DNA of 64,000 nucleotides from Sipunculus nudus. Taxonomy: Eukaryota; Annelida; Sipuncula; Golfingiida; Sipunculidae. Shown piece after piece: positions 1 to 59,879 of the stretch; position 1 is the stretch's first letter, and each line of letters opens with the position of its first letter. The stretch covers positions 57,832,300 to 57,896,299 of the forward strand of contig CM049314.1 in the NCBI GenBank assembly GCA_026874595.1. The letters run 5' to 3'. Below the pieces are notes generated by a model. The model saw only the letters and a list, made by a program, of their open reading frames with translations. It ran no database searches and had not been told where the DNA came from. Made by a program: the position numbers and the translations under genes.

Positions 1-1166
1 TGAATCATCTACAAGGTCTAAATGCAGAGCACAATATCCTTGAGAAGGTAAACTTTTCACATTTGCGTGATCTGCAAGCCCTGAGATATCTAATACTACG
101 GAACAACCGGATCAGTGAGTGCGTTACCTCAGGTGTTGCTGGTTGGATGGACCAGCTTCTATATTTAGACTTGAGTTATAACCACCTTGTCCTTCCTTTG
201 GATTTGGAGTTGTTTCCGAGACATCTTTCTCTTCTTCACAATCATCTATTCTGTGGGTGTAGAGTCCGATCTTTTGGGAAAACATTAGGTAGGCATGTAT
301 CAGCGGCTTGCCATAGTCCAGAAGTCATGACTAATATCAAATCGGATACGTGTTATTATGAGTATAACAATAAATTAAGAGCCCAAATACCACAAAGATG
401 TGATCCACCTGAAAAAGAAACGGTAGATAAATTACAAAACCGGTATAACTCTCTCCCAGATTGCACAATGCCATTCGTTTATTTAGACACAGTCAACAAC
501 AGGGAAAGTGTGGTATGTGTCGCTATCGGTGGACCGGGTATTGAGATAAACATGACGACACCGGATATGGAATCAATTATTCACCATCCACGTTTTCCAG
601 AAGAAATGTTTTCGATTGTCAATATACCAAGGTACCATGACGGCGAGTACATCTGTTCCGTGCGGAACCAGTTCAGCCGAGAAAGGGCGACCCGCACGTC
701 GACACTGGGCATCAATCGTTCGAGCTCATTTATCTCACAGTTCAAAGAAAAAGTTTGTGGAGGGATTGTGAACGGCACCAAAAGTCTGCAGGAGAACATA
801 ATTATCGTTATATTGTGCTTAAGTATCCTTGTGAATATTGTTCTTCTGGGGAAAGATTGTTATAAAATCCTGCAACAGAAAAGAAAGAGCAATGCGGATT
901 TAGTACGTCTGACCAATGTTTCACACATAAACACTCTACGAATCAACCCCATCCGACGATTCCGGACACAAGCGCCTAATGAGGATGGTCAATATCAAGA
1001 GTTCGAAGACGTAATGGATCCACGTGATCAGGTCATGGAAAACAACATATTGTACGAGCAAGAGGGTTCCCCGTGGGGAGCTGCCTCGTCACCCAAAAAT
1101 GTTGACACAGGCCATGCCCACTATTATTATGCTAGGCCACATCAGGTATTACTATGTGGAATGTAA
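1..1166 (+). CDS. LRR-Ig single-pass transmembrane receptor, 3' part (5' end outside window)
   Basis: The frame is already open at the window edge and runs to a TAA at 1164-1166, giving about 387 visible residues. It begins inside an LRR (NHLQGLNAEHN), continues through LRRs such as LRYLILRNNRIS and LLYLDLSYNHLV, then an LRR C-terminal cap (HLFCGCRVRSFGKTLG). An Ig-like region follows, with paired cysteines in VVCVAIGGPG and the typical DGEYICSVRNQF. A membrane span (IIIVILCLSILVNIVLLG) leads to a cytoplasmic tail of about 100 residues with several tyrosines (ILYEQ, HYYYARPH). The ectodomain is very close to the complete gene at 58578-59879, which shows what is missing: signal peptide and first LRRs. 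The tail is unrelated to that paralogue's short tail. The combination is that of surface recognition or adhesion receptors; ligand and signalling partner are unknown. No TIR domain is present. Confidence 0.88.
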   Translation, partial: NHLQGLNAEHNILEKVNFSHLRDLQALRYLILRNNRISECVTSGVAGWMDQLLYLDLSYNHLVLPLDLELFPRHLSLLHNHLFCGCRVRSFGKTLGRHVSAACHSPEVMTNIKSDTCYYEYNNKLRAQIPQRCDPPEKETVDKLQNRYNSLPDCTMPFVYLDTVNNRESVVCVAIGGPGIEINMTTPDMESIIHHPRFPEEMFSIVNIPRYHDGEYICSVRNQFSRERATRTSTLGINRSSSFISQFKEKVCGGIVNGTKSLQENIIIVILCLSILVNIVLLGKDCYKILQQKRKSNADLVRLTNVSHINTLRINPIRRFRTQAPNEDGQYQEFEDVMDPRDQVMENNILYEQEGSPWGAASSPKNVDTGHAHYYYARPHQVLLCGM

Positions 1167-9639: not shown

Positions 9640-10008
9640 CCATTTTTAATGCTGACTTATTTATTTTTTAACCCATTTCGGTTTGGGACTACTTGACAGG
9701 GCGGTAGCACTCGCTTCCTATCATTTATATTTGTATCCTGGTGTCATCCAGGCACGGTGTAAACCGCACCTGCGGGTCCTGGTAGTGTAATCAACCCCAT
9801 TGCTGGCCCATAACACTGAGGAACCCCCCAAGCGCACTCGCATGTGAGTGATACACGGCTATTGGGCACAACCTTTCCATTAAGCCTGAAGAGCGCTCAC
9901 TCTGGATGGGGGCCGACCGTGAAAAACCTCACCGCCTTGGCTGAGATTCGAACCCACAGATCCCGGCTTTTAGTCATGCGCTCTGCCCCTGAACCACAGA
10001 AGCCGGTT
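9640..10008 (-). mobile_element. tRNA-derived SINE, minus strand
   Basis: Read on the minus strand, the element starts with a tRNA-like head: GGCTTCTGTGGTTCAGGGGC carries an A-box-like segment and GGTTCGAATCT matches a B box about 40 bases later, the two halves of an RNA polymerase III promoter. The body contains TTTTTCACGGTCGGCC, GCCGTGTATCACTCACATG and GACCCGCAGGTGCGGTTTAC. The same body is at 14040-14240 (head missing) and, diverged, at 38293-38560 (plus strand). Minisatellite sequence continues on both sides, so the SINE inserted into the array. Confidence 0.8.
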
Positions 10009-10989: not shown

Positions 10990-11830
10990 CTGCTCACATG
11001 TCGGGCAATATAAGCTGTGGATATTACTTGACATGTCGGACATGGTAAGCTGAGGATATAACATGACAGGTGGGGTAAAGTAAGCTGGATAGGCTTCCTA
11101 AAATGTGGGGGAATGTAAGCTATAGATGCTACCTGATATCAGGGGCAATGTAAGCTTAATATGTTTGTTGACGTGTGGGGTAATGTAAGTTGACATGTGG
11201 GACAATGTAATCTGAGATGTTACCTGGCATGTGGGGTTATGTAAGCTAAATATGTTTCCTGACATTTGGGGTAATGTAAGCTGACATGTTGGACAATCTA
11301 AACAGGGATACTACCTGGCATGTGAGGCAAATCAAGATGGATATGTTTCGTGAAATGTGGGGCAGTGAAAGCTGTAGATGTTAAATGAAGTGTGGGTCAT
11401 GGTAAGCTTAATATTTGACCTGGCATGTGGGATAATGTGAACTGAATATTTGGCCTGACATGTGGGGTAATGTGAACTGAATATTTGACCTGACGTGGGG
11501 TAATGTGAACTGAATATTTGACCTGACATGTGGGGTAACCTTAATATTTGACCTGGCATGTGGGGTAATGTGAACTGAATATTTTACCTGGCATGTGGGG
11601 TAATGTGAACTGAATATTTGACCTGACATGAGGGGTAATGTGAACTGAATATTTGACCTGACATGTGGGGTAATGTGAACTGAATATTTGACCTGGCATG
11701 TGGGGTAATGAAAGCTGAATATTTGACCTGACATGTGGAGTAAAGTAAGCTGAATATTTTCCTTACATGTTGAACAGAGTAAGCTTTATATGTTACCTGA
11801 CCTATGGGGCAGTTTAAGCATCATGTGTTG
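10990..11830. repeat. Minisatellite, unit about 35 bp, roughly 24 copies
   Basis: The unit reads approximately ACCTGACATGTGGGGTAATG followed by TGAACTGAATATTTG. Copies are most uniform at 11404-11740 and degenerate toward both ends. Because 35 is not a multiple of three, the minus strand is open in rotating frames and yields a 108-residue open frame with a 35-residue period; this is an artefact and not a gene. Confidence 0.93.
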
Positions 11831-12044: not shown

Positions 12045-15000
12045 ATGGCGACTAGTTTCTTTACACTGTCTGATCAAGGCGTTACTACAAAAATGCAAGG
12101 CTGTCGATCGCTGACTTCTGTGTTTCCCGAAGCAATGGATTGTGGGAAGGATTTGATACAGACTCATGATGATGATTATGATGATGATGATGTTGTGATG
12201 ATTGACTTCCAGGACTGCGTCGACGGAGAAGTTAATTTAATCGATTCAATGTAAACATTAACTGTTTATTGCATCTTGATTCGTAAAATCTAAGTTGTAG
12301 GGATATTCCATTTTATTGTCTGATTTTGCAGCCTTTCTTTAATAGAAGTACGTATATTTGGAAATAACATGATTAATTATGCTATTTCGTTGAGCGCAAA
12401 ATGTACACTCATGCGCATTACAAAATGAATGTATAATATATATATATATATTTATATTTTTATATATTTATATTCACACCTGTGTATTTTACTTTGGATA
12501 TCCGAATCTTTCGCAGCAGAACTGAAGCTACCCATGGTTGTTTGGAGAGGTACACGGTGTATATCCAAGACAAAGACTGTGAGCTCTACTGGAAAGCGGA
12601 CGCCAACGGACAGATCACAATGACACCCATCGATCCAACTAACTATAAAAAATGTGAGTAACCTGTATAAACCTTTCTTTATCGTAACCTGAACAATGCA
12701 CTCAATACATCGGCATACCGGGCTTTTTTTGAGAAAATCATTTTCGACAAGGTCTGTGAAAGTCAGATATCAAGACGGTATGAAGAATGGGAATTGCGAA
12801 ATACCTTTGTTGGATTACATATTTATTTCAACAGGATAACAAGGTAGCCGACAAGGCTAATGCAAATGCTAAATATCAGCCTCATCTGTCAGACTCTAAG
12901 CAAATAGATTCGGCCCATGTCAACACATCTTAAATCCAAAAAATGTTTGATCCCACTCACTATTGTATCTCACCACCACGGCAAGCCAGAACGTGGCAAT
13001 GTCGGGAATAAATGTGATTGAAGACCACGTTCTAGTGGCGTTCGCGGCACGTTCTTCCCACGGCATTCTCGTTTAATTCTACGGCATACTGTTAAAATTC
13101 TGTTCTCATACGGTAAAACGTGGCTTTTACTAGAAGAACGTAGAAAGCCAAAGTTCCAATGAGGATTCGCCACATTCTCGCTGCGGTGCGCTACTTGTTT
13201 TTTACGTTTACCTATCACTATTTTTTAGCTGCAGGGTCACAGTTAACACGTTCAGACACTTTTTCATACGGTATCCTCGGAAAAGGGCCACGTACTTAGG
13301 TGACAAGAGGATCTTTCGTTATCAAGCTCCCAGGGTTTACAGCCTGGGTTTCATCCAGGGTGCCACAAGGAGCAAAATTCTGAGCTAGGGGCCACTTCCA
13401 GTCTCGTTCGTTTTGAATATTTCAAAGAGAAATGATCATGACCATCTACGTTCATTCACGGCCTACCAGTTCCTCTAACGAACCTGAAAAATGTGGCGAA
13501 CTTGGTGAGACCTAGGTTTACCCCAAAACCAGACTGGGGTCCCTAGGAACCTGCCCCAACACAAGAAAGGGAGATACCACTCAGCTAGTTTGGTGTAACT
13601 TTGTGACATTGAAGGTATTAGCTGCATTAAATTATGAGTTTCTATTTAGATAACTAACTGTGACAAAAATCTAAACACTACATTTTGCATTGGGAAGGAC
13701 AAAATGAGTCAAAATAAAGCAAACATCTATTCAGCTATTTTTTTCAAGGAATCTACAAACCTACTGAGTGCCCTTCAATAAAAAAATATATACTATTTCA
13801 GACCGTTTCCGGCTGTTCATCTACCGTTACTCCAAAGGTAAACACCCAACAGTGGTGGTCATATCTACAACTGATGGAAGCAATCAATATGTAGACATCC
13901 CCAACTCGCATCATAATCTTAAGTTAAAGGTAGGTATGCCAATTTATTCTCTGTGCATTAAATAAAACATATATGTCATGAAATAAGTCATGTAAGTTTA
14001 AATTCTTTGTGCCCGACGTGCACTTTGTGCATCTTCACTATTCCATTTCGAATTCGGACTACAAGACAGGGCGGTAGCATTCGCTTCCCCTTATTGTCCC
14101 CTGTTGTCAACCAGGCCAAGTGACCGCCGCACCTGCGGGTCTTGGGTTTGAAATCATCCTCATTGTTGGATCATACAACCGTAATCCCCTAAAAATGCAC
14201 TCGTCTGTGAGAGAATCACGGCTAGAGTCCTAAGAGAAAACCATTTGGCACAGATGATATCACATTGAAAATGTACACATGGCATAAAGGAAGGACTCGG
14301 TCGATTTTTGTGTCCTTTAAATTTGACATTTATAATGTTTTACGCAAACAAGGCTTTCCAACTATCTTAATTAAGAAATAAAATAATTTTCAGGGCGAAG
14401 CTGTTATTCGAAAATGCTTTTAAGTCTTTTTAAGTTTTGATTTTTTATTTCACCTAGTTTTGAATTACGAATTTTATTCGAAAGATTTACTGGCATTTTT
14501 CAAATCTAACAATGGTACTTTTTTCAAACAATCAGGTGATACCATTGATCTTATCGCAATTGAAAGGCTCCTGTGTCCCAGAGACACTGTGCATGTACCA
14601 TCGGAATCCGGAACAGTCTTCATATATCTGCTATGATGCTCTATGGCTTTTAATTGTATGTGGTCATTAAGCAAGAAACTTAAAAACTAAGAACTGCCTG
14701 GAACAGTTAAATTACCTGTGTACAAAAATTTAATATATACATAATTAGATATAATAATATATATAATATTAAATATATATTATATAAAACACAAAGAATT
14801 ATCTGATAGTTGGATATCAAATGTATTTTAGTTCATATTTTTAATGCATTATGTGTGAAGGCCGGTTACCAAGACTTACATAGAGTGTGGAGTGTACATC
14901 CCGAGTATCTACTCTACTTCTACAGAAGCAGTGGAAGTGACGTCAAACTGGAACTTGTCGCGCGACCTGGTGGGTATAAAAATAAATATAATATGTAAAA

Positions 15001-15066
15001 TAATTGTATGGAATGGTTGTTAAACTATACTCGATAGATACAATACGACCCATGATTATTAATGGG

Positions 15067-15114
<48 letters not shown>

Positions 15115-16532
15115 TGGTACCCAGCACAATTATGAGAATCTAATAAAACGGTTGCATATCATTCTGTGCGGGTCTACCAATTAATGGATGCAATGTAGTT
15201 GCAATACGTGTGTCCGGAGATACAGATTTTCCGTTACTTACGGTAAACTCTTTTAAAAACAAGGCGAAAAATGTCATTTACGATTATGACAGTGTGGGAC
15301 GAAAAAAGGGAAAATAGCTGGAGGGAGTACTCGCCTCTGTGTTATTATGGGAATCTTTTACAGGAATCAAGCCGTATGCACATTTAAAGTTCGCAAAATC
15401 ATTTCAAACGTGGTAGGTAGCAGGAACTGTAGTACAACAGTATTAAAGAATAATAATGTAATTAGTTTTCCTGCTGTCAATGAATTTTCATTTATTCTAT
15501 ATGAATTCGGTTACGGAAACAAGTTGGGTTTCTCCTTATTAGTGTGACCGTGTTTAGTGCATATTATAATGAGGGATGACCGGGTGTTAAGCGAACGCTA
15601 GGTTAAGGTATATGAGTGAGATTCGCATGGTTTTTTAAAAATTAATTTTCAAACCCCAATATGAAAACCGTTTCTTAGGGTAGTAGCTTTGTTTGGTCAC
15701 TGGTGGTGCGTTTTATCAGTCATGCTACCCGCGGTGTGTCAGGCGCTGTGTTTTAAAGCACTGGACACTGGTTGCATTGTTACGTCATGCCAGGGAAATT
15801 TGTAGATTTCAGTCACACTGTGGGAGATAGAATGCTGGACTTGCACATTTAAAACATGTATATTTCACTTTAAACAGTTGGAACAGGTGTCTTGATGTTC
15901 GCTGGCAGGTTCACCGCAAAATGCCTATGTCCCTGGCACTGTAACATATCTAGGCTGGGGAATGATTGTATATTAAGTAACGTAGCCTCCAATAACAGTA
16001 GACGTGCACAACGAGTAAACAAGCGCCAAATAAAGATGTTCATGTTAAACAAGAGTATACAGAAAATTAATTCCCCTTGACGTGCACAAGGCTTAACTGC
16101 TTGCCGCCATGTTGCTTGTTTGACCCCCAACTGGTCAAAAGTCCATGGCAAATCTAACCTCCTTTACTAAAGAGTAGGGATCTCCGGACACGGGTATTGA
16201 AGATGCCGGCCTTGTAAATTTTTATATAAACAAGTTACTGGCAAGCAATATTTAATGGTTTAGTGCCCGGAAAAGGGTAGGGGATTGTTTATATAGTTGA
16301 CTCTGATCGGTTTAAGCCAATATTTGTACCAACAGGCATGATCGGCTCTGAATGTACAGTAAACAGTAAACCCTTATGTAAGTGATGTAATGATATCCCG
16401 CATGTTAGCTCATAGATGACCATATGTTTGAACGATTCTTGAAAACGGGTATCATAAACTTCCTGTGAAGTGTGTAACTGTATTATCGTTTGTTATCCTT
16501 TTTTGAAAATAATGTAAACACAGTAGCCTTAA

Positions 16533-16573
<41 letters not shown>

Positions 16574-18412
16574 ATAAAATATGGGAGGTTTTATAGGATT
16601 CGTGTTCTCACAGACCTCTCATTTAAACAGAACAAAATTTTCTGTCATAGCCCCCAGAAGTGGTTTACTCATTATTTACATAACTCATTTACAGGAACGT
16701 TCATTACTCTTGACAGTTGTCATGGGATTTGCGTCGAAAATTACCCGCACTGGTTTAACGTGTGGCCGATGATAGGTGTTTCCGGCAGCGAGGTGGCGAC
16801 ACTGATCACGACAGGAAGAACCGGTCAGCCATTGGTTCTGAATGTCAGGGAGAACAAGCTTGTTGGTGAAGACAAAGAACCGAGCAATGAAGGCAGGTTA
16901 TGCTCTCTACACAGTTATAAATTTATATACATTAATGTTAATCCTTAATAATTTTCGGTATACCGTGTAATGAATATAAACCTTAAATGAATTGATATAA
17001 ATTGTTTATGATGCTACATCAATGATTGAGGTATTCAGTATATAGTGACAGATAGCGTATTTGATATGCATTAGTTTGCTTATATGAGGAACATATAGAG
17101 AATAATATAGTTTTAAACGCAAAAGCTCGTCTGTTTTTCTTTCAGATAATTTCAAGGTATATCATTATGATTACCGTGTTGGGGATCACACCTTTGATGC
17201 TGTAGTTCTGTATCATGTCGCTAGTGGGCGTGTCATCCGGGTCAGTATCTTGGAGGACCCGCTCAGGGTTACAGGTATTATAACAGAGGTAAGACTTTAT
17301 CTCTCTTGATTTTCTTTATCTCTCATTTATCTCAAATTTATTTGTCCGTATTTTATTTTGGGCTGATCGGGCAAATAATAGTGATAAGTTGTTCACTCAG
17401 AATTCTTGCATTTTGATTATAGATATTATATACATTAAAGTCCCTTATTTTCAAAACTTTAGAAGAATTTTGAACGATCGTTTGGAACAGCGTACTTTCG
17501 AAAAATTGGAACGCTCATAGAGACGGGCGTACAACGCAATCTTAGGTACTCCCAGTTGCAGTTTCTGGCTTACCTGTAGACTGGTTCCAACTCCAATATG
17601 CACGCTCATACTGGTTGTCATGGACGCTGTCGCGGTCCTGCTGGTTTATTCTTGCATAGTTCTTGAAAATAACTTTATTAAGTCACTTCTGGTTTTATCC
17701 AGTTTTAAAATATTGAAGAATGAGTCGTTGCACAAAAATTGAATGATGGATGTATAAATAATACAATATGCTGAATAAGTTTGATATTCCATTGTACGTG
17801 GCATTGATTTATCATTAATATCCATTATTCTTATCATTAATGTCACATGCAGTGTACAGCCAACTTCTGGCAACTTCACCGAGCATTATATATACATATT
17901 GGAGTTAGAACCAGACTACCGGGACTACTTAAGATGGCGCTGTACGCCCGTCTCTATGATTGGTAGAAAACAATGATAGAGAGGGGTTCCAGTCTATTCA
18001 GTTCCGGTAATTTCAAAATTATTATGTTTTTCCTTGCTTGGTATGTCTGTTAATTTTGAACATATACCGAGCTTAGCTTTTTTTTAGGATTAGGGCAATG
18101 CACAAGGAATAATCTGTTCAAATTGTTAGCAAAATTTATTACACCGTAACATGTTTTTGATTGAAAGGAATCTTTTCTCGGTGGGGGTTATCCCGACTGA
18201 GGGTCATGGCTATTTATTATGGACATAATTCATTCCTGAGCTGACGTAGCGGTCATCCAACAATGGACACTCATTTTATTTGTAGACAGTGGCGCCAATT
18301 TATCTTCCTGAGTAGGTGGTGTGTCGGGTGGGGGGGGGGGAGTAGACTCAACGGTCTTGGAAGGACAACTGTTTTATAGAAATATTTTAATCCTGTGCCA
18401 CATTTTATTCCG

Positions 18413-18462
<50 letters not shown>

Positions 18463-19542
18463 TTAAAAAAATAAATTCTAAACAAGGCTCAGCTATATTA
18501 TGTTTTATAGTAAATTCAGAAAAGGAGAAATCCAGCCAAAGTCTATCATTCGAACTTTTAATACATAATTAGAAATCTTATTATCTGAATGACTGGGGCC
18601 CGGGGATGATAATATTGATTAACACCTGTTGCTATAACAAGGGGTATATACCCCTTTACCCCCTGTACTGACGCCACTGTGTGTAGAACAATGACATGTT
18701 TGACAAGGATCCTGGCGGAGTTAAACATGTAGGACGGAACTACATTTTACATTTTTATTTCATGTAAAGACTTACATGTTTACTTAACAGGAAGAGAGGG
18801 ACCCAGACGCTTTTGCAAGGTTAGAGAAGGCAGATGGACGCGTGTTTTTGTTAAAGGCCACTGCAGAGGGAATCGTTCTTGCAAGTCATGAAGATCCAGG
18901 TAAGCTTTTTAAAAGCAGACAAACGTACACTCAAGAATTAAAATCGTGACATCTCGTGCCCCACTCTGCTACTTCTCATATATGGAAACAAGATGTGCCA
19001 GATATACACGTGGTAAAGACGGGGTACACGAACGTTGATGTAAACTAGGTTTGCTGTGTGACAGCACACAACCAAACTAAATTTGATTTAATGGATTCGG
19101 ATATCCACTAGCTGGTTTAACAAAATCTGTTTGAAATGTTTGATTTGAGCATTTACGTATGTGAGCTATGAAGCTTGTTGCGAAGTACCAACAATTAAAG
19201 AGAGAAAACAATATGAGAAAAACCTGATTGACACATAATCATTAAATACGATTAAATTTGGACATTTTATAAATTATTTCACAGGTGTGATGATATAAAA
19301 TGTATAAATTATGTTAATATACCTCCAGTTTGTTTTCAGATATGCATCTTGCCGTTCAGCTACAGTTAGAACCCGGAGTGCATCCGGTCATTTTGACAAC
19401 AAGGAGTTTACGAAATCTAAAATTTCACTTCAAGTTCACAAAGATTCAGATACCTGAACGTAAGAAACAACAAACTGTTTTATTCAGAAGACCTTCCGTC
19501 AGGAGATCTCAGTCCATGTCCAGTAGTATTAATTATAAGTGA
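12045..19542 (+). CDS. Unrecognised eight-exon gene: leaderless protein with two duplicated beta-rich halves
   Basis: Coding exons: 12045-12250, 12517-12653, 13802-13929, 14861-14969, 16695-16892, 17146-17288, 18791-18899 and 19340-19542. All phases join (2,1,0,1,1,0,1), giving 1233 nt and 410 residues. The start ATG has an in-frame stop just upstream. Residues 1-68 have no signal peptide and carry an acidic run at 42-49 (DDDYDDDD). The rest is beta-strand-like, without a membrane span, in two related halves: exons 2-4 and 5-7 share end phases 1,0,1. Exon 3 (RFRLFIYRYSKGK) resembles exon 6 (NFKVYHYDYRVGD), and exons 4 and 7 are both 109 nt. The tail is basic and serine-rich (RRPSVRRSQSMSSS). 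I do not recognise the family. A double beta-trefoil, leaderless cytokine-like protein is an inference, based on layout and on an ID-P-x-NY-x-K segment recalling the IL-1 family. One intron appears to be GC-AG. Exact ends rest on splice consensus and phase only. Confidence 0.75.
14040..14240 (-). mobile_element. SINE body fragment, minus strand (intronic)
   Basis: It matches the body of the 9640-10008 SINE: GACAGGGCGGTAGCATTCGC, CGCACCTGCGGGTCTTGG and CACTCGTCTGTGAGAGAATC occur in the same order. The tRNA-like head is missing or decayed. It lies in the intron between the third and fourth coding exons of the 12045-19542 gene. Confidence 0.75.
15068..15113. repeat. (TA)n microsatellite (intronic)
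   Basis: About 22 TA units in the intron between coding exons 4 and 5. Confidence 0.95.
16535..16571. repeat. (TA)n microsatellite just upstream of exon 5
   Basis: A TA run about 125 bases upstream of the acceptor at 16694. Confidence 0.93.
17516..17958. repeat. Imperfect inverted-repeat element (MITE-like) in an intron
   Basis: The left arm, 17516-17607, begins CATAGAGACGGGCGTAC and contains GACTGGTTCCAACTCCAATA. The right arm, 17881-17958, contains its reverse complement (GTACGCCCGTCTCTATG at the outer end). Arms are about 80-90 bp around a 270-bp centre, inside the intron between coding exons 6 and 7. There is no coding capacity, as expected for a non-autonomous element. Confidence 0.75.
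18416..18460. repeat. (TA)n microsatellite (intronic)
   Basis: About 22 TA units in the intron between coding exons 6 and 7. Confidence 0.95.
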
Positions 19543-23380: not shown

Positions 23381-25030
23381 ATGAACCTGAAGAGCTACAT
23401 CAATTATCCATCATCAGTTCCTCTCCTGTATACAACATGGCCGGAACTGTTAGATGAACATGTCAAGAAAAACCCTAACAAGGTGGCGCTGAAGATTTAC
23501 ACACAAGATATGAATTTCGATTCGCTGACATACGCCGAACTCCAGCAGAAATCCCTGGAGGTTGCTACTGTTCTCCGACGCTTGGTGCCCGAACTGAAAT
23601 ATGGGGACATGGTAGGCATTATCGGTGCTAACACGTGCGAACTGCTGATAAACATACATGCAGTATTCGCTCTAGGCGCGGTGATTGTGTCTATTCCACA
23701 TTATGTTAAAACAGCTAAAGACCTACGTCCCTTCCTGCAAACAATACAGTGTAAAATATTGGTTTTCCAGCACGGTAGTTTGGATTCCTCCACATTGGGT
23801 CCAATAGAGGAGCAGGGTACCAGGCTAATTCGTTATGGAGATAATGGTGAGGAGGGCATCAATGGGATTAGATCCCTCCGCAAACTTCTGGAAGATGTGA
23901 CTTCATCATATGTGAATGATACTAAGAAGTTGAAAAATGAAATTTGCCCCGATTTGGCAGCCGCAGTATTTTTTACTTCGGGGAGTACTGGCGTGCCTAA
24001 AGCTGTCACTTACTCACATTTCCAGCTGATTAACAATGTCAATGTTTTCGGAAAACAACTGAAGCTTACGCAAAACGATATTTTCTTCATCGACAGGGCC
24101 ATTGTCCATATTGCGCCATTCCTATGCATACATTGGTTTCTGGTTCCAGGCCTGTGCTCTGTCTGTCTGGACACTCATCTCACAAAAACCGACATAAAGA
24201 CAATATCTAAAATCATTAAAAGAGAAAATTGCACCGTTTCTCTGGCGTTTGGTTATGTTCTCTTCGATATGCTAAACGCCGAAAAATTAACAAAGCAATA
24301 CCTTAGTTGCCTAAGGCTTCTCATCACATCGGGGCAGACGTTGAACGAAAGAATAGTATCAGAGTTACGACGGGTGCTACCAGACATTTTTCTGGTTAAT
24401 GGGTTTGGGTCGACAGAAATAGGATGGACCCTGATGAATCAGGAACGATTGGAGGAACAGGAAGACGGCTTCATAGGGCCGCCCCTGCCGTACTATGAAA
24501 TCAAAATTGTTGGAGATCATGGTGAGACATTACGACTTGGCGAAATTGGCGAGCTGTATATAAGAGGCCTTTTAATTGCGATGGGGTATATGCATGGAGA
24601 CAGCCTACAGGATCTGAAGTCACGGGAGGGGTGGTTTGCCACCGGTGATATGGCCGTGTTGAACGCTAGCGGTCATATAAGGATTGAAGGCAGATGCATC
24701 GAAATAATCAAACGTGCTGGGATTAAAATTTATCCAGCAGAAGTTGAAAATGTAATTTGTGAACATTCTGAAATCAGTGCTGTCCAAGTGTTTGGCGTCC
24801 CCGACGAGCGCCTAGGAGAAGAGATCTACGCATGTGTGATTCTGAAGCAGGGCAGCACGATGAAGGAAGCGGATTTGTTGGAATGGTTTGTTGAAAGATT
24901 CAAAGATTCCAAAATTGGAGATTACAGGGCCCCTAAGTATGTGGAACTATTTGAAGATTTTCCACGCCTTCCTTCTGGAAAGGTATTCCGAAAAGAACTT
25001 AAGGCAGAAATCCTTGGGCGTATGGGCTAG
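23381..25030 (+). CDS. Acyl-CoA synthetase, ACSF2-like (medium-chain fatty acid:CoA ligase type)
   Basis: A complete 549-residue member of the AMP-forming (ANL) superfamily, which activates a carboxylic acid with ATP to an acyl-adenylate and then transfers it to CoA. The nucleotide loop TSGSTGVPKA is at 199-208. NGFGSTEIG (340-348) is the adenine-binding motif. TGD at 421-423 holds the ribose-binding aspartate, the hinge GRCIEIIKRAG is near 437-447, and K534 in PSGKVFRKEL is the adenylation lysine. Length is slightly under vertebrate ACSF2, mainly at the N-terminus, and no clear mitochondrial leader is seen. The whole coding region is one exon. An acceptor-like TTTTTAAAAG ends four bases before the ATG, suggesting a 5' UTR intron. 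The hinge has E441 where many relatives have D. A broken paralogue lies at 42774-43863. Exact substrate cannot be read from sequence; other ACSF-type ligases are possible. Confidence 0.9.
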   Translation: MNLKSYINYPSSVPLLYTTWPELLDEHVKKNPNKVALKIYTQDMNFDSLTYAELQQKSLEVATVLRRLVPELKYGDMVGIIGANTCELLINIHAVFALGAVIVSIPHYVKTAKDLRPFLQTIQCKILVFQHGSLDSSTLGPIEEQGTRLIRYGDNGEEGINGIRSLRKLLEDVTSSYVNDTKKLKNEICPDLAAAVFFTSGSTGVPKAVTYSHFQLINNVNVFGKQLKLTQNDIFFIDRAIVHIAPFLCIHWFLVPGLCSVCLDTHLTKTDIKTISKIIKRENCTVSLAFGYVLFDMLNAEKLTKQYLSCLRLLITSGQTLNERIVSELRRVLPDIFLVNGFGSTEIGWTLMNQERLEEQEDGFIGPPLPYYEIKIVGDHGETLRLGEIGELYIRGLLIAMGYMHGDSLQDLKSREGWFATGDMAVLNASGHIRIEGRCIEIIKRAGIKIYPAEVENVICEHSEISAVQVFGVPDERLGEEIYACVILKQGSTMKEADLLEWFVERFKDSKIGDYRAPKYVELFEDFPRLPSGKVFRKELKAEILGRMG

Positions 25031-30200: not shown

Positions 30201-32658
30201 TGGAATCTTCTCACTTGACATCCGACACTCTCGACATCGACATACGTTTGATCGAATTGAGGAACATACTGAGTGAATAGCATCTGTCCTATAATTTGTG
30301 TTATCCATTTAATATCATACATGGAAAAAAGGCTTTCGATAAAGGAGCGATAACAAAAACCAAGCAAGATAAATTCTAACCTCTGTTATTATACCGGTGT
30401 TCCTGAGCGAATCCTTAGAGACACTTGCCCGTATAACACGCCGGCGTAATAAGGAACTACACTTTTGTACTTACGTTTTTGCCTGGAACCTGGACGCTGA
30501 TGCGCACCTTGCGATATCATGGCACAGATTTTGGGTCCACGAATGAGGAGAAACACACAATTTGCAGTTGTGCACAGCACCCTGCATTCTAACCTGATCT
30601 GTCCGATATCACTAGCGTAAGTGATGGCACCCTGTATATGGTGCATTACAATACCTAGAACAGAATAACTGATTTGATGTTTACTCACAAGTAACATAAA
30701 TTTACATAAACAATTGAAACAAAATTATCACGGCATAGTCACCAATGATGGAATTTACTTGGCACCCTATTCTACTTACATTTTTTTTTCTGGCTGGCAG
30801 ATCAAGGATTTTTTAGGTACCACAATACCTCTGACGCAGCTTTAGAAGTAAACAGCTGAACCTTCCCTGTAAACATTGCATGTCAGTTTTTTTTGTATTA
30901 GAATGGTGACTGATCATCTTATTCAGTGCATGACTACTTGTCCGCTTGAACACTTATTCGTTCGTATGCAAATACAATTATGCCCGAGATAACGCTAACT
31001 GGTTTTGTATAGAGAATTTGACACATTCAGTTTCAGCGAGGTGGTGATAATGCCACCCCTGTCCACTCACCTCGGAGCGTAAATACATATATATATATAC
31101 ATATATAAACTAATGTTATGGCCTCCTTTGCATGACCTAATAACCATATTCCGATATACTTGCACTCTCCTTTAACATATATCTGGCCTGATTATCACCC
31201 CTCCAATAAAACCCAAACAAACATTTGAAACCACAGGTCACAGATAAAACAAATATTGGCAAAGTAGTCCATTTTGTTTGAAACAATGCTGAACACCTAT
31301 AAAACCAAACAATTTTTTTTAAATCCAAAAAGAGCTGACCAAACTATTCAAGACTCTTTTCTCCCTCCCAAATACGGCTGAAATTCCACGGACGTGTCCC
31401 AACGCAAGCCGTGTGTATAATGAGTTCTACTGGTAATTTAACTGAAAAAAAACAAGACAGAATTTATTTTTTCAATACAAATATGATGAATGGAAAGCGA
31501 ATGGACAGAAAGGACGAAAAAATATATCATTTCATTGTCTATGTAATAATTGGTCTTGATAGCACTGAACCGCAATACCTCTTGCGCTACGTCTGGGAAA
31601 TGCACGTTTTGGACCTGACGTAATGAAAAAGACATCAAGTGTGTCCTAAGAATGCGTTTTCAATCTTGATGAATTCGGGATAATTTAGCGAAAGGGCTAT
31701 GGCAGTGCCATTAATGAGAAACTAGAGCAATTGTGTGTATGCAGAAGGTAAACTCGGCCCATGGCCATCCCATTCCCCAACGGGAAACTCTTACAGCACA
31801 AGAACTGGTAATATGCTCGTTACATTGAAGAAAAATGGACAAGAATTGGTTACCCTCATTTCAATTTATCCAGGTCTCCTGGATGCATTTTTTCCTCAAA
31901 CATACGGTGAAGAGTACCTCCAATGGATAATACTGTTATTTGTACAATTCAGCTGAGATAAATATGTTCAACCTAACTCTCAGGGTTATTGCATTAGGTT
32001 GAATGCATTTCAGACTTCCCATTAAAACATGACTCAAGGAATCTTTTTATAAATACCGACTGGCCCTTTGAATCATGATACCTGTCACAGTTGAAGAACT
32101 GCTCCAAAGGTCAGATCAAAATATTAGCTAAGCGGAAGTATTTCAAATAAAAATTAAAAAAAATCATGTTGTACTTGTACTGTGATTGAACATATACCTA
32201 AAAACTGGCTGGTGCAAAACACTTCCTCTCTTCTCTTCAGTACCAGCTTTTTCTTGAGAAAGCGTTACGTTCAACTGCCGCCATGAAGGTACCCGAGCGC
32301 TATTATGAACATAGAACTGGTTCTATGTCTACGGCAGTCTTGCTTACCGTTAATAAGGGGAATTTATTTACTGAAGTGATATATTTAGGCACATTTGTGA
32401 TGAAAAGGCCTTTGCTATCAATTATCACAGCATGTAAGTTTACAGAGACACAGCTAGTGTCCAGATGGGTGTTCTTAGCTAAGCACCATTTCACCTGTGG
32501 ACCCCTTGGTTTTAAGTGACTTGAATTATTGTTGGTCAGCTTTTATGAACATTCTGAACAGTTTGGTTCTCTTCAAGCGGATGCATTAGTGTTTAAAAAG
32601 CTGTACTACAGAGACCTATTTTGCTGCTACAAAAACCTGTCGATTTGGTCTGCTCATC
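30201..32658. other. Intergenic DNA with unclassified open frames
   Basis: Open frames at 30389-30697 (minus, 102 codons), 31411-31623, 31735-31956 and 32283-32519 show no recognised domain and no convincing splice structure. A GC-poor (TA)n patch lies near 31088. I cannot name a gene here. Confidence 0.35.
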
Positions 32659-32664
32659 TACCAA

Positions 32665-33269
32665 TGACTCAACTACCAGTGCTATACCAGAGAGGATCAG
32701 GGACACTTGAGTAGTATCTGGAGTTCCTGTTGGACCCTACCATATCACTCAGTCTATATGGTGAGCCCTCTATTATATGCAATACTATCCATGGGAAAAT
32801 TCTCCAGAACCATCTATTATGTCGCCCTATTAATGTTAGTCTTTTATGGTCCTTTCATATTAAATACAGTAAATATCCATAGATAGGACGCTGTTGTAAT
32901 TTACGTTGCGTCTATAACAAACAGAATAAAGTTGGATGTTATTCAGTTTTGTCAATGTCAAAACTAGTAACTTAAAACATCGAATATTTAATTGGGTTTT
33001 CTTTCATTCTTTCCAGTGTGGTATTCCTGGAATATTCCACCCACATTGTGGTCTTCCGTCAGTTGAGGTCACCTGTTTAGAGGGGAGGACACCCATAGCC
33101 AATTTCACTATTAAGCTGTAAATACAGTTAATAAAGTTCTTTTTTTTGTTATCCCGTCTTCATCTGGTTTGTATGAAACTGTGATACTGTGCTGTAACAT
33201 ATAATTAAGGCATGAAATAAGCTGGGGCAAGGAACTTTGGGTTGTGTGAATAACCTGGAGTTGAATCCT
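32665..33269 (+). repeat. 5' LTR
   Basis: Nearly identical to 36025-36628, beginning TGACTCAACTACCAGTGC and ending GGAGTTGAATCCT. It contains two AATAAA-type signals (in AACAGAATAAAGTTGG and GTTAATAAAGTTC). It does not end in the usual CA, so the exact 3' boundary is uncertain by a few bases. Confidence 0.8.
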
Positions 33270-33275
33270 TGACAT

Positions 33276-33293
33276 TGGTGCCGTGACCAGGAT
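33276..33293 (+). other. Candidate primer-binding site
   Basis: TGGTGCCGTGACCAGGAT starts a few bases after the 5' LTR. It begins with TGG, complementary to a tRNA CCA end, as expected for tRNA-primed reverse transcription. I have not assigned the tRNA. Confidence 0.6.
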
Positions 33294-33727
33294 TTTCTCT
33301 TTCTTTTCTTTTGGTAAAGAGACTATTAGAAAATAGATTAAAAGATAAAAGCACAGTTTCATACAACCCATAATCTTTGGTTTATCCACTCTCTGTGATA
33401 AATTTTTGAACCCCCTTGTTCGGTATTCCTTACATAGGTAGGATTGTTGATCCGTTGCGGGAAGAAGGGCCAGCTCCTCAGGGCTAAGTGAGTAATTTTA
33501 AGCTACGGCTGGGCTTTGGTTGATGTACGCTACGGCGGTTAATTGAACCTTTTAGATATGCCCTGTAGTAGACTTACATGTGTATTCACATGTGGATCTT
33601 GTCACTCTCTTAGGTACTACAGCAGATTTTTTTTGCTAGTCATTAGCTGATGCTACGGCATAGTTTTGAGCTGAGCAAAGTTGTAGTATAGTCTTGTGAA
33701 TTCATTAGTTGTGGATTCTCATCTCAG

Positions 33728-34498
33728 ATGGTTGGTCTGAGGGGTTTTATCGTCTTGTGGTTGGTTGCATATTATGGCTGCTTAGGCAGACATTGGAAAG
33801 CCAACATTGATGAACTTAAGGAACTTATAACTTTAGGGGAGAAGCGAGGTTTTAAGGGGGCTGATCTCCAAAGTTTTGTAGACAAAGAAGTTCATCGCAT
33901 AGAGGAAAAACGGGAGGGGGAGAGATCCCGTGAAGAAAGAGCTCTTCAACGTGAGCTTGAACGCGAAAAACTAGAGCGTGTTCATGAAATAGAAGTCTTG
34001 AGATTAAAGACTCAGTTAGCTGAGAAATCTCCTGGTACTCAGGGGGCAGCCTTTTTTAAGCATTGTATTTCTTCTCTAAAAATACCCTCTTTTGATGAAC
34101 ACGCAGATCAGCTAGACGCTTATTTGGAGCGATTTGAGCGATTTGCGCTAGGCTAACAATGGGACAGAACAGACTTGGCTGTGCATCTCAGTGCGATATT
34201 GAAAGGTAAGGCACTCAATGTTTATCCCAGTCTTTCTTCTGCTGAGGCCTTAGACTATGACAAACTTAAGTTAGCACTGCTCAGAGAATTTCAAATGACT
34301 GATGAAGGCTACAGAATTAAGTTCCGTACGTCCCACCCGGGAAAAAAAGAATCCCTAAGTCAGTTTGTTGCACGGATAGGTGGTTACTTGCACAATTGGA
34401 TAAAAATGGTAGGTATTGATCAAACGTATGAGAGCTTGATTGATCTTTTGTTACGAGAGCAGTTTCTGACTTCACGCTCAAAAGAACTGTCAAGGTAA
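33728..34498 (+). pseudogene. gag fragment of the LTR retrotransposon
   Basis: The reading frame from ATG 33728 runs to 34153, meets a single in-frame TAA (34154-34156), and continues in the same frame to 34498. The first part has a strongly charged coiled-coil stretch (about residues 55-115, rich in E, R and K). The second, starting near KIPSFDEHADQLDAYLERFE, has the helical pattern of Gypsy gag proteins (LSAILKGKALNVY, LLREFQM, SLSQFVARIGGYL). The zinc knuckle is missing because the frame ends at the junction with integrase sequence. Confidence 0.75.
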
Positions 34499-34503
34499 GT
34501 AGG

Positions 34504-35100
34504 TTGTTAGGGATCAAACAGCTCACCACCACTCCTCACAACCCTAAATGTAATGGTCTGGTGGAGAAGTTCAACGATACTTTGAAAAAGATGTTGAAAA
34601 GAATGTGTGCCGAAAAACCCCTAGATTGGGACAGGTATGTTGCTCTTCTGTTATTCGCTTATCGTGGGTCACCACATGAATCACTTGGAGGATTTTCCCC
34701 CTTTGACCTTTTGTATGGTAGACATGTCACAGGTCCACTGATGGTTTTGAAAGAACTGTTGACAAAAGAGGGTACCTCCCCTGATGTCAAGAGCACGTAC
34801 CAATATGTCCTTGATTTGAAACAGAAGCTTAGTGACACCTGTGAGTGAGTTCAACAGGCTCAGGTCCTTACGTCAGAGAGGTACAGGCATTATTACAACA
34901 CGAGTGCCAAGCCTCGACAGCTACAAGTAGGGGAAAAAGTTTTAGTGCTGCTTCCGACAGATCGTAACAAATTGATATTACAATGGAAAGGGCCTTTTGA
35001 AGTCATGCAACGCTTCAATGATTGTGACTACAAAATCAACATGAACGGTAAGTCCAAATCATTCCATATTAACCCCTTAAAGAAGTATGGTGTCAGAGTG
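34504..35100 (+). pseudogene. Integrase C-terminal fragment (end of core plus GPY/F module)
   Basis: It begins in the last part of the integrase core (TTPHNPKCNGLVEKFNDTLK, the usual T-x-x-H-P-x-x-N-G-x-x-E with N for the Y/H variant). It continues with LLFAYRGSPHESLGGFSPFD and ends in a GPY/F module (LQWKGPFEVMQRF, then FHINPLKKY). An in-frame TGA sits at 34846-34848. The zinc finger and first two catalytic aspartates are absent. The frame stays open into the segment leading to reverse transcriptase, so integrase and reverse transcriptase are physically joined in this order. Confidence 0.8.
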
Positions 35101-35289
35101 AAAACTCCTTTGGAATGTCTCGTCGATATGCAAACAGTAGGCTGTTTGTTTGATATGCCAGGTGCAGCATGTGAGGTCGGTGAAACTATTCCTGATCAAG
35201 ACACGGTTGGTATAGATGATTGGAAAAGCATTGTTCCTCTTCCTAGTGTTACCCGTAAACAAGGGCCTGCTGATGTCCAGGTAAGTGAC

Positions 35290-36021
35290 ACCCTTTCCGT
35301 CCAACAAACCACACAACTTAGAGCGTTACTTGATAAATTAGATGGTGTGTTTACGGACGTTCCAAAACAAACCAATGTCATTTAGTGTGATCTCCACCTT
35401 ACCACAGACCAGCCAGTCAGATCGAAGCCTTATGCCGTTCCTCATGCATTAGGAAATACTATGAGGGAAGAGGTAAGTGATATGTTATCTCTTGGAGTCA
35501 TAGAGAGAGATCAAATTCAGCTTTTGCTTCACCCGTTGTCATGGTCCGCAAAAAATACGGATCAGTGCGCTTCTGCGTTGACTTTCGTAAGTTGAATCGG
35601 CACATTGTTTTTTATCCTGAACCTATGCCAAATCCCAAAGATTTATTTGCAGAATTACAGAAAAGTAACTATTTTTCCAAACTGGACCTTACAAAAGGTT
35701 ATTGGCAAATTCCGATGTCGGAAAATTCGAGAAAACTTACGGCTTTTGTGTCACCAGAGGGCCAGTGCCAATTTAAATTCATGCCTTTTGGTCTGGTAGT
35801 GGTAGGTGCAACTTTTACTCGGATGATGCGAAAATTGTGTTCCCATGTATCAGGTGTGTGTTGCTTAATCGATGATGTGTTATGTCACTCTGCAACGTGG
35901 TCTGAGCATTTAGCTCTTCTAGACAAAGTTTTGTGTATTCTTCAGGAAGCTAATCTGGCTGCTAAGCCAGAAAAATGCTTCTTAGGATTTGCTGATTTAG
36001 GTTGTATGGGTCACATGGTAC
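35290..36021 (+). pseudogene. Reverse transcriptase fragment
   Basis: The N-terminal linker (TDQPVRSKPYAVP, then MLSLGVIERE) leads to RT blocks VRFCVDFRKLN, FSKLDLTKGYWQI, FKFMPFGLVVVGATF, the catalytic box as LIDDVL, and AKPEKCFLG...GHMV. A TAG at 35383-35385 and a one-base frameshift near 35507 interrupt it. It ends at the 3' LTR, so thumb, RNase H and anything after are lost. The box has L in place of the usual Y or F before I-D-D. Confidence 0.85.
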
Positions 36022-36024
36022 CAA

Positions 36025-36628
36025 TGCCTCAACTACCAGTGCTATACCAGAGAGGACCAGGGAGACTGGAGTCAGTATCTGGAGTTCCTGTTGGACCCTA
36101 CCATATCACTCAGTCTATATGGTGAGCCCTCTTTTATATGCAATACTATTCATGGGAAAATTCTCCAGAACCATCTATAATGTCGCCCTATTAATGTTAG
36201 TCTTTTATGGTCCTTTCATATTAAATACAGTAAATATCCATAGATAGGACGCTGTTGTAATTTACGTTGCGTCTATAACAAACAGAATAAAGTTGGATGT
36301 TATTCAGTTTTGTCAATGTCAAAACTAGTAACTTAAAACATCGAATATTTAATTGGGTTTTCTTTCATTCTTTCCAGTGTGGTAATCCTGGAATATTCCA
36401 CCCACATAGTGGTCTTCTGTCAGTTGAGGTCACCTTTTGAGAGGGGAGGACACCCATAGCCAATTTTACTATTAAGCTGTAAATAAAGTTAATAAAGTTC
36501 TTTTTTTTGTTATCCCGTCTTCATCTGGTTTGTATGAAACTGTGATACTGTGCTGTAACATATCATTAAGGCATGAAAGAACCTGGGCAAGGAAATTTGG
36601 GTTGTGGGAATACCTGGAGTTGAATCCT
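36025..36628 (+). repeat. 3' LTR
   Basis: Matches 32665-33269 with few substitutions and small indels. Sequence after GAATCCT diverges from that after the 5' LTR. No polypurine tract directly precedes it, in keeping with an internal deletion reaching the LTR. Confidence 0.8.
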
Positions 36629-42773: not shown

Positions 42774-43863
42774 ATCTAGAGTTCTTCCAGACTCGGCAGC
42801 TGCTGTTTTTTTTTCACATCAGGCAGCACTGAAATCACAAAGGCGGTTACTCATTCGCATTTCCAGCTGATTAACAACGTCAGTGTTTACGGCAAAAAGT
42901 TGTCATTGACCGAAAAAGACATCTTCACCACAGACAGGGCCACTATCCACGCGGCTCCATTATTTGCGTCAATGTGCTTCCTGGTGTCAGACTTATTATA
43001 CGTTTCATTGGATACACATGTTACCAAAACCGATATTGAACCAATCCTTGCCATTTTAAAGAAAGAAAGGTGTACAGCTGCAATGTTATTTGGTTATTTG
43101 CTTTTTGATATATTGAAAGAAGGAGAACGGGCAAAACCATACCTTACATCGTTACGGGTTCTCATCGCAAGCGGTCAAACCTTGAACGTTCAGACTGCAA
43201 TCAACATCCAAAGGATTTTGCCAGATATACATTTTGCGAATGGATATGGGGCAACAGAGATTGGAAATGCTGCCGTCAACATGCAACCACTGGAAGACCA
43301 GGAATTGGGTTTCATAGGACCACCGTTGCCAAACTATGAAATGAAAATTGTAGGAGATCATGGGGAGACTTTACCCTTAGGTGAGATCGGCGAACTTCAT
43401 TCAAGAAACCTTTTGATGGCTCTCGGGTACATGACTGGAGAGGGTAGTCAAAAGATGACGTCACCAGAAGGATGGTATGCCACCGGTGACATGGCTTCAA
43501 TCAACGACAGTGGTCATATCAAGATTGTTGGCAGAAAGGTTGATTTTATAAAACGTGCCGCGAATAAGATATTTCCTGCGGAGATTGAAAATATTATCTC
43601 TGAACATCCTGAAATCAGGGGTGGTTTGCATCCCCGACCAACGATTTGGAGAAGAGCTTTACGCATGCGTGATTCTAAAGCAGGGCAGCACAATGAAGGA
43701 GGCGGATCTGTTGGAATGGTTTGCTGAAAGATTCAGAGATTCCAAAGTTGGTGATAACAGAGCACCAAAGTTTGTAGAAATATTTGAAGACTTTCCACGT
43801 CTTCCCTCTGGAAAGATTTCGAGAAAAGAACTGAAAGCAAAAGTCAATGGACGTTTCAACTGA
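42774..43863 (+). pseudogene. Acyl-CoA synthetase (ACSF2-like) pseudogene, 5'-truncated
   Basis: It aligns along the last two thirds of the intact gene at 23381-25030 and ends with the same PSGK-type terminus. About 190 N-terminal residues are absent. Three defects: a frameshift in a run of nine T near 42805-42813, directly before the nucleotide loop; a damaged loop (TSGSTEITKA, losing the glycine and proline of G-x-P-K); and an 8-base loss near 43618 that shifts frame again. NGYGATEIG, the TGD motif near 43490 and the terminal lysine survive. The left edge falls at a good acceptor-like TTTTTTTCTCCATCTAG, so this could be the last exon of a gene with distant upstream exons, but the frameshifts argue for a relic. 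Confidence 0.85.
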
Positions 43864-58577: not shown

Positions 58578-59879
58578 ATGAAAATGATTTTTCTGAATTT
58601 AATCTTTGTACATGTGGCTTTGGCCTTAAAACCGAGGTCGCTGTGTCAAGGAAATGACATATCTCTTGACTCTTCTGAAAGCAGATCAAAAGCGATACCG
58701 ATTCGTACCGTAACGATAAACCAACGAGTAATGAACATTTCACATTACTACCTTTCCGCGCACGGCCTGTGCAAATGGAACTTTTCTTTGAAGCTTGAAC
58801 ATTTGGACCTGACCAACACCAACATCAGTGACGATGAAGCAAACTTTCAATGTTTGAAAGGCTTGAAGTGGCTCCTAATTGGTCACAACGATATTTCCGA
58901 AATCAAGGAGAATTCACTTCGTGGACTAAAACATTTACTCGGGCTGAATGCAGAGCACAATTGCTTGGAGACAATTAACTTTTTTCATTTTCGTGACCTG
59001 CACGCCCTGAGATATCTGATTCTGCGAAACAACCGAATCAGTGAGTGCGTTACCTCAGGTAATGCTGGGTGGATGGACCAGCTTCTATATTTAGATTTGA
59101 GTTATAACCGCCTTGTCCTACCTTTGGATTTGGAGTCGTTTCCGAGACATCTTTCTCTTCTTCATAATCCTCTATTCTGTGGGTGTAGAGTCCGATCTTT
59201 TGGGAAAACATTAGGTAGGCATGTATCAGCCGCCTGCCAAAGTCCACCAGTCATGACTTATATCAAAACAGATACGTGTTATTATGAGTATAAAAATACA
59301 TTAAGAGCCCAAATACCAGAAAGGTGTGATCCACCAGAAAATAAAACGTTAGAAGAATTACAAAACCGTTATAACTCTCTACCTGATTGCACAATGCCAC
59401 ACGTTTATTTAGAAAAGATAGACGACGGGAAACGTGTGACATGTATCGCTATCGGTGGACCGGGGATTGAGATAAACATGACGACACCAGAAAAGGAATC
59501 AATTCTTCATTATCCTTCCTCTTTAGAACAGATGTTTTCAATTATCAATATACCAGGGCACCATGAAGGTGAGTACATCTGTTCTGCGCGGAACCAGTTC
59601 AACAAAGAAAGGGTGATCAGAAGGTCAACACAAGGGATTGATCCTTTGAGCTCATTTGTCTCCCAGTTTAAAGAGAAAGTTTGTTCAAAGGAACCAAAAT
59701 GCACTTGTCTACTTTTTTGGCCTTGGCATCTTATTTTGCTCATTGCATCTTCAAGCATTATTTTGAATGTAATTATGTTAGGCCTTTGCTGTCCATCTCG
59801 TATAAAAAAGAAAACCACAAATCTTGTTGTCCTTGTCTATGTGCGCACCCCAGAATTTTCTGGCTTTAATGCTACCTGA
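58578..59879 (+). CDS. LRR-Ig single-pass transmembrane receptor, complete
   Basis: 433 residues from ATG 58578; the frame is open for six more codons upstream but only TTG precedes this ATG, and the ATG begins a good signal peptide (MKMIFLNLIFVHVALALK). About five LRRs follow (LEHLDLTNTNIS, LKWLLIGHNDIS, LLGLNAEHNCLE, LRYLILRNNRIS, LLYLDLSYNRLV), then a cysteine cap (PLFCGCRVRSFGKTLG). An Ig-like domain has its cysteines in VTCIAIGG and EGEYICSARNQF. A hydrophobic span follows (WHLILLIASSSIILNVIMLG). The cytoplasmic tail is only about 30 residues, starting CCPSRIKKK, unlike the roughly 100-residue tail of the 1-1166 paralogue. The coding region is a single exon. Several N-glycosylation sequons occur. 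Surface recognition or adhesion is the family role; the short tail suggests that signalling, if any, needs a partner. Confidence 0.9.
   Translation: MKMIFLNLIFVHVALALKPRSLCQGNDISLDSSESRSKAIPIRTVTINQRVMNISHYYLSAHGLCKWNFSLKLEHLDLTNTNISDDEANFQCLKGLKWLLIGHNDISEIKENSLRGLKHLLGLNAEHNCLETINFFHFRDLHALRYLILRNNRISECVTSGNAGWMDQLLYLDLSYNRLVLPLDLESFPRHLSLLHNPLFCGCRVRSFGKTLGRHVSAACQSPPVMTYIKTDTCYYEYKNTLRAQIPERCDPPENKTLEELQNRYNSLPDCTMPHVYLEKIDDGKRVTCIAIGGPGIEINMTTPEKESILHYPSSLEQMFSIINIPGHHEGEYICSARNQFNKERVIRRSTQGIDPLSSFVSQFKEKVCSKEPKCTCLLFWPWHLILLIASSSIILNVIMLGLCCPSRIKKKTTNLVVLVYVRTPEFSGFNAT

Follow-up and report, generated by a model that had tools for sequence, protein, structure and literature searches.

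The closest described relatives of the gene reported here, which occupies positions 12045 to 19542 on the plus strand of a 64,000-nucleotide stretch of DNA (the window), appear to be the IL-1 cytokines of vertebrates, which signal inflammation. Invertebrates are credited with IL-1 receptors without IL-1 ligands, the origin of IL-1 being placed at the vertebrates (PMC9020223, PMC9382457), and Ig-TIR receptors are reported in protostomes (review, PMC9020223). Within the family, IL-18 and IL-33 have been proposed to have arisen independently (PMC5861070). One source contradicts itself on the date of origin: the introduction of PMC8226699 has IL1 appear first in mollusks, its results and Figure 2 legend have IL1B appear first in lampreys, and the parts of it covered name no mollusc IL1 gene. 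Among the matches listed from titles and abstract starts of open-licence PMC papers, none describes an invertebrate IL-1 ligand gene, which unlisted, subscription or later papers may do.

We consider it likely that the window gene belongs to a tandem cluster of IL-1-like genes, each encoding a leaderless product with an acidic N-terminus, two linked IL-1-type beta-trefoils and a basic tail. There is good support, from sequence comparison, for the first domain (domain 1) as an IL-1 homologue, and the second (domain 2) is probably its diverged duplicate. Both domains probably adopt a beta-trefoil fold, and domain 2 may be of IL-1 type; the family may descend from the same ancestor as vertebrate IL-1, and its members may function as cytokines.

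Structure and reality of the gene

The exons and one relic of the family in the window are as follows (lengths in nucleotides, nt; strands b1 to b9 are predicted from alignment).

12045..12250, plus strand: exon 1, acidic N-terminal region of the protein (residues 1-68, including DDDYDDDDVV), no signal peptide
12517..12653, plus strand: exon 2, phase 2 to 1, start of putative trefoil 1, strands b1-b3
13802..13929, plus strand: exon 3, phase 1 to 0, 128 nt, strands b4-b7
14861..14969, plus strand: exon 4, phase 0 to 1, 109 nt, strands b8-b9
16695..16892, plus strand: exon 5, phase 1 to 1, GC donor, end of putative trefoil 1 and strands b1-b3 of trefoil 2
17146..17288, plus strand: exon 6, phase 1 to 0, strands b4-b7 of trefoil 2, phases as exon 3
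18791..18899, plus strand: exon 7, phase 0 to 1, 109 nt, strands b8-b9 of trefoil 2, phases and length as exon 4
19340..19542, plus strand: exon 8, end of putative trefoil 2 and basic C-terminal tail, TGA
30338..30442, minus strand: exon 6 relic, end of exon 6 and start of its intron, 105 nt, 77% identity

All eight exons had been proposed by a sequence-only reading of this DNA and were recovered exactly where it placed them. Their phases fit (2, 1, 0, 1, 1, 0 and 1 for the seven introns), and splicing joins them into a single open frame, 410 codons long and ended by TGA; a TAA in the same frame lies just 5′ of the ATG. Random segments of the same eight lengths would all stay open with a probability of ~4e-13, a figure uncorrected for the choice of exons. 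The same reading described the splice sites as consensus, which is true overall, except that the intron after exon 5 is GC-AG (ATGAAG/GCAGGT) and not GT-AG. The 1-0-1 phase pattern occurs twice, in exons 3-4 and in exons 6-7, and exon 4 has the same length as exon 7 (109 nt), which suggests a tandem duplication of one domain and, for the two domains, an origin by internal duplication of one exon set. Compared by BLAST, one half of the protein matches the other with a best E value of 0.25 beyond the stretch given to both, so that the duplication would be old or very diverged.

The protein was also described correctly as having an acidic N-terminus, no signal peptide and no membrane span. Residues 1-69 have an isoelectric point (pI) of 4.1, and hydropathy alone indicates neither a signal peptide (top 12-residue value near the N-terminus, 0.54) nor a membrane span (top 19-residue value anywhere, 1.17). 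By this measure the window protein shares the lack of a signal peptide with most members of the IL-1 superfamily; a secreted form of IL-1Ra with a leader exists. Residues 383-410 form a basic tail with a pI of 11.8. In the diverged lineage of copies B, D and F (L010, L012, L014), exon 8 extends into a longer, strongly basic tail (KSKKKRRFLQRRHCVRRS...), a possible nuclear signal.

A constrained tandem family

Exon searches of the organism's own assembly (1.427 Gb, 153 contigs, E <= 0.001, 65 candidates scored, all counts being lower bounds) gave at least 61 exon matches, and all of those listed lie on contig C9 at 57.419-57.931 Mb, around the window (57.832 Mb). They group into about ten tandem copies (A-J) within 0.51 Mb, the window gene being copy I. 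The gene had been called an orphan; with paralogues in a tandem cluster and a detectable relation to IL-1, it no longer merits the name.

Seven of the ten copies (B, D, F, G, H, I, J) have open exons 2-8 that agree in phases and boundaries, with exceptions: the exon 2 acceptor lies 3 nt further on in copies B, D and F, and an in-frame deletion removes 24 nt from exon 6 of copy H. The rare GC donor after exon 5 is kept in all seven copies examined. Exon 1 is common to copies G, H, I and J, with the same donor position, and a shorter exon 1 in copies B and F joins in frame from a phase-2 donor of its own; the start of exon 1 of copy D lies outside the stretch examined. Copies A, C and E yielded exons 4-7 only, with in-frame stops in exons 5 and 7, and their exons 1-3 and 8 were found neither in the examined stretches nor by the genome exon search. 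The relic at 30338..30442 is debris of another copy.

Over exons 2-8, the window copy and copy B differ by a nonsynonymous divergence (dN) of 0.185 and a synonymous divergence (dS) of 0.619 (dN/dS 0.30; Nei-Gojobori, own script), which shows purifying selection on the gene family. Conservation, claimed from the window alone, is thereby upheld in the seven open copies, and the eight-exon gene is confirmed as real and constrained. An alternative exon at 14536-14640 was rejected, being absent from copies A-F and altered by an indel in copy H.

At 57.419-57.543 Mb of C9 (L009-L014), a minus-strand copy with stops accompanies a plus-strand open copy in three pairs (A/B, C/D, E/F) spaced ~53-54 kb apart. 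The plus copies B, D and F are near-identical, and the unit looks recently triplicated.

Sequence relationship with IL-1

Five query forms of this protein were used to search the PDB (177,635 distinct sequences). For domain 1 of copy B, phmmer returned six sequences up to E 10, the first three being IL-1 alpha constructs (E 0.007-0.008); residues 39-142 of the query align on residues 40-142 of IL-1 alpha, 103 residues at matching coordinates. A profile of domain 1 from three copies gave 18 sequences, again headed by three IL-1 alpha entries (E 0.095-0.12) and including IL-36 alpha (E 0.32), both cytokines being in register. Domain 1 thus has detectable sequence homology to a known member of the IL-1 superfamily, and the first rank of IL-1 alpha in the whole-PDB search overturns the view that no motif could be assigned to the protein. 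For calibration, human IL-18 and IL-33 were each run through phmmer against the PDB; neither retrieves a further member of the IL-1 family up to E 10. The IL-1 signal sits in domain 1 and, by these sequence searches, rises once that domain is isolated.

Pairwise comparison with a panel of six human IL-1s and five FGFs is consistent with this result. Domain 1 scores 96 (window) or 113 (copy B) against IL-1 alpha, values reached by none of 5000 shuffles (top shuffle 76 and 74, respectively), and the reversed domain scores 47 and 39; for reference, IL-1 alpha against IL-1 beta scores 117 and IL-18 against IL-1 beta 69. Its z scores exceed 3 with IL-1 alpha, IL-33 and IL-36 gamma.

In profile comparison with the six human IL-1s, domain 1 columns 50-131 fall on 48-132, in register, with no column permutation out of 300 scoring as high, and domain 2 columns 90-163 fall on 86-158, also in register (1/300). 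Scored on the IL-1 profile, the two-copy profile of domain 1 reaches 27.9, and the single domain 1 sequences reach 27.0 and 24.9. Known members, each scored against the other five, range from 17.7 (IL-33) to 81.9 (IL-1Ra), with IL-18 at 31.8, and the maximum for 20 other open frames from the window and the loci, some of which hold exon 5 of the family, is 16.2. The IL-1 core motif is F-F / FES-PG-WF (PMC12108812). The core of exon 4, LLYFYRSSGSDVKLELVARP, aligns with this region, where domain 1 of the window reads LEL...PGTF and keeps E, P, G and F, four of seven positions; human IL-18 and IL-33 also depart from the motif.

Intron positions

The coding introns of turtle IL-1 beta have phases II, 0, I, I, 0, similar to those of known family members, and the 12 strands of IL-1 beta lie in its last three exons (PMC4880838). 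Intron positions were compared here in three MAFFT alignments built from sequence only. For human IL1B we assume coding exons of 47, 52, 202, 165, 131 and 213 nt, which sum to 810 and reproduce the phases II, 0, I, I, 0; the IL1B positions in the alignments rest on these assumed sizes. Exon 3 of the window gene presumably has its counterpart in IL1B exon 6, likewise of phase 1 to 0, with an assumed length of 131 nt.

When both domains are aligned jointly with the six IL-1s and five FGFs, column 70 holds the phase-1 intron of domain 1, of domain 2 and of IL1B alike, and the phase-0 introns fall at columns 125, 127 and 127, respectively, the IL1B positions being partly assumed. When domain 1 is aligned with the IL-1s alone, its phase-1 intron falls in the same column as that of IL1B and its phase-0 intron two columns off. 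A simple uniform model puts the chance of the domain 1 coincidence between 1.4e-4 (one exact, one within 2) and 7e-4 (both within 2). In both domains, introns of phases 1 and 0 surround the b4-b7 exon, as in IL1B with its assumed sizes. A third phase-1 intron, at column 172, is common to both domains and has no IL1B counterpart.

Weighing the evidence

Several results weigh against an IL-1-like identity. In Pfam, the full protein matches no family up to E 10, the four domain sequences give three matches (E 0.042-0.15), all far below the curated cut-offs, and the IL1 model, taken as a working criterion and not as a definition, matches neither the full protein nor the domains up to E 10. The first reading, a candidate undescribed family, holds in the sense that no Pfam family matches the protein; it fails in that domain 1 of a paralogue matches IL-1 alpha best. 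In the search with domain 1 of copy B, phage gp7 follows directly after IL-1 alpha (E 0.017). The full-length window protein retrieves eight PDB matches, all viral 3C proteases (E 0.55-0.78), and a four-copy full-length profile places IL-1 alpha in the last three of its 14 ranks (12-14, E 1.0-1.3), with eL13, a MAP protein and 3C proteases above it. No IL-1 in the PDB is matched by the domain 2 profile, whose two hits are both eL13, at E values (0.002-0.003) lower than those of IL-1 alpha with domain 1. In pairwise comparison domain 1 stays without signal against IL-1 beta and IL-18 (z at most 1.5), and domain 2 is ambiguous, copy B pairing best with IL-36 gamma (z 5.2) and the window copy with FGF2 (z 4.7, 1/300 shuffles); on the IL-1 profile domain 2 scores 16.3 (window) and 21.0 (copy B), and FGF2 alone, at 32.1, exceeds domain 1. 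When domain 2 is aligned with the IL-1s only, the phase-0 intron shares its column with that of IL1B and the phase-1 intron lies eight columns away. Both the IL1B exon sizes and the FGF intron sites are assumed values.

Other identities were tried and rejected. A fold like that of viral 3C proteases would span 85-100 residues (E 0.18-0.78), no more than a part of domain 1, and ribosomal protein eL13 is matched twice over ~30 residues, each stretch taken alone giving E 5-10. A scan of viral contigs for relatives yielded 43 pattern matches, none confirmed, and no lectin is among the matches of the five PDB searches. Membership of the FGFs proper was likewise discarded: the FGF core is lacking, the profile match is out of register and the PDB searches return no FGF; against this stands the score of window domain 2 with FGF2 (z 4.7). 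In the organism's own genome, an FGF family model and an FGF9 query gave no matches, with controls silent or lacking, and a mollusc haemocyanin model gave none, with silent controls.

Among the competing explanations, a separate branch of the IL-1/FGF beta-trefoil clan comes nearest to the IL-1-like reading, although we regard it as unlikely. Such a branch would have kept the ancestral intron pair while being neither IL-1 nor FGF, and its members would perhaps not be receptor ligands (e.g. intracellular, like FGF11-14). It would account for the ambiguity of domain 2 between IL-36 gamma and FGF2, and the score of FGF2 indicates that the IL-1 profile measures kinship to the clan and not to IL-1 alone. 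The introns point in the same direction, as those of FGFs, which we take to be of phase 1 before b4 and phase 0 after b7, would lie at strands equivalent to those of IL1B, so that the shared introns may mark the whole clan. In the joint alignment, however, the assumed FGF2 intron sites are 31 and 8 columns away from those of IL1B, the FGFs being poorly aligned there. Nor does domain 1 give an FGF signal comparable to its IL-1 signal: its z scores with five FGFs are at most 2.2 for the two copies, and the profile alignments with FGFs are out of register, with 6/300 (domain 1) and 20/300 (domain 2) permutations as high. The five PDB searches, which bring up IL-1 alpha and IL-36 alpha, contain no FGF among their matches.

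A good deal less probable still is a beta-rich family without kinship to IL-1, for which both the match to IL-1 alpha and the agreement of the introns would be accidents. Each single line is indeed modest (E 0.007; an intron chance of ~1e-4 with positions partly assumed), and matches that look like chance (eL13, gp7, the MAP protein, 3C protease) reach E 0.002-0.8; what speaks against accident is that register, introns and both domains agree by separate methods. Least credible of all is a non-functional relic that stays open but yields no product. The three of ten copies with in-frame stops and the exon debris in the window would suit it, but in seven copies exons 2-8 remain open and their splice sites are conserved; dN/dS against the diverged lineage is 0.30.

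A proposed mode of action

An IL-1-like product would be made as an intracellular precursor in barrier or blood cells. Upon damage or infection it would be released without passing through the endoplasmic reticulum, perhaps after proteolysis in the acidic region, and its trefoils would dock to Ig-TIR receptors of the IL-1R type. The basic tail may keep the protein nuclear until release, and the two linked trefoils could bridge two receptors. By analogy, the combination of an acidic leaderless N-terminus, two trefoils and a basic tail would liken the product to alarmin precursors of the cytosol or nucleus such as those of IL-1 alpha and IL-33.

Evolutionary implications

The genome would be that of a mollusc-like protostome. 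An 18S gene of its assembly (L039 on C18; Rfam RF01960) reads CTTAGATCGTACACTCCTACTTGG and GCGCTTTTATTAGATCAAAACCAATCGGG, forms which we take to be typical of molluscs and other protostomes, unlike vertebrate 18S. The window has a CpG observed/expected ratio of 0.73. In our judgement the chances are about even that IL-1 ligands predate the protostome-deuterostome split, that invertebrates kept a leaderless, two-trefoil, tandemly amplified IL-1 engaging Ig-TIR receptors, and that the receptor-first history is wrong. If so, a protostome IL-1-like gene with the intron phases of IL1B would move the ligand back to the bilaterian ancestor and suggest what the Ig-TIR receptors of invertebrates may bind. 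It would bear on the proposal of an independent origin of IL-18 and IL-33 (PMC5861070) and give a concrete gene to which earlier observations of invertebrate IL-1-like activity (cited in PMC9020223) could be tied.

Neighbouring features of the window

Other features of the window are listed by coordinates.

23384-25027, plus strand: uninterrupted open reading frame for a 548-residue acyl-CoA synthetase-like protein with AMP-binding and C-terminal domains, near the IL-1-like gene
42783-43724, plus strand: shorter acyl-CoA synthetase relative, AMP-binding only, near the IL-1-like gene
58578-59876, plus strand: open reading frame for a leucine-rich-repeat protein, with a C-terminal hydrophobic stretch by eye
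3-302, plus strand: 89% identical to part of the leucine-rich-repeat frame at 58578-59876
10991-11829: minisatellite of ~35-bp units directly upstream of the IL-1-like gene
32713-36373: pair of 300-bp repeats (99% identical, 3361 bases apart) enclosing reverse transcriptase and integrase-like fragments
14043-14224 (intron 3) and 9673-9861 (upstream): dispersed repeat of ~190 bp, 72% identical, tRNA-like by eye

The match at bases 3-302 implies that a leucine-rich-repeat gene family is also present in the region. On its minus strand the minisatellite is open over 125 codons, probably by repetition only. The repeats at 32713-36373 probably delimit a young retroelement of long-terminal-repeat type, and the ~190-bp repeat is a possible short interspersed nuclear element (SINE).

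Comparison with known systems

The R-type beta-trefoil lectins of mussels, including the mytilectins, are mollusc beta-trefoil proteins, known here by description only. The FGFs share with the window protein the beta-trefoil, predicted in its case, and the existence of leaderless members, and FGF2 pairs with domain 2 of the window; they differ in that domain 1 has no FGF signal. For the IL-36 cytokines, the likeness consists of an in-register core, FYR...G....LE.VA.P..FI, with IL-36 gamma, and of IL-36 alpha among the domain 1 profile matches; it extends over only ~30 residues, and both cytokines have a single trefoil.

IL1B is similar in gene structure: its b4-b7 exon, like that of the window gene, lies between introns of phases 1 and 0, placed in identical or neighbouring columns of the joint alignment, and the exon lengths are 128 nt in the window gene and 131 nt (assumed) in IL1B. 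The exon before it in IL1B is of phase 1 to 1, as is window exon 5. A leaderless acidic pro-region is a further feature of IL1B shared with the window protein. The gene differs from IL1B by a third phase-1 intron per domain, after ARP or EDP, and its protein, compared pairwise with IL-1 beta, does not exceed shuffled sequences (z 1.0-1.5).

Human IL-1 alpha (PDB 2ila, 2kki, 5uc6) is the best PDB match of domain 1, the alignment between the two spanning ~132 residues and predicted strands b1 to b11. Both proteins are leaderless and both carry a basic nuclear-type cluster, which in the window protein forms the C-terminal tail and in IL-1 alpha lies in the N-terminal pro-region, the site of its nuclear localization signal (PMC5861070). 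IL-1 alpha is a vertebrate protein with one trefoil, not two, and the tandem two-trefoil form predicted here would set the new family apart from the single-trefoil vertebrate members.

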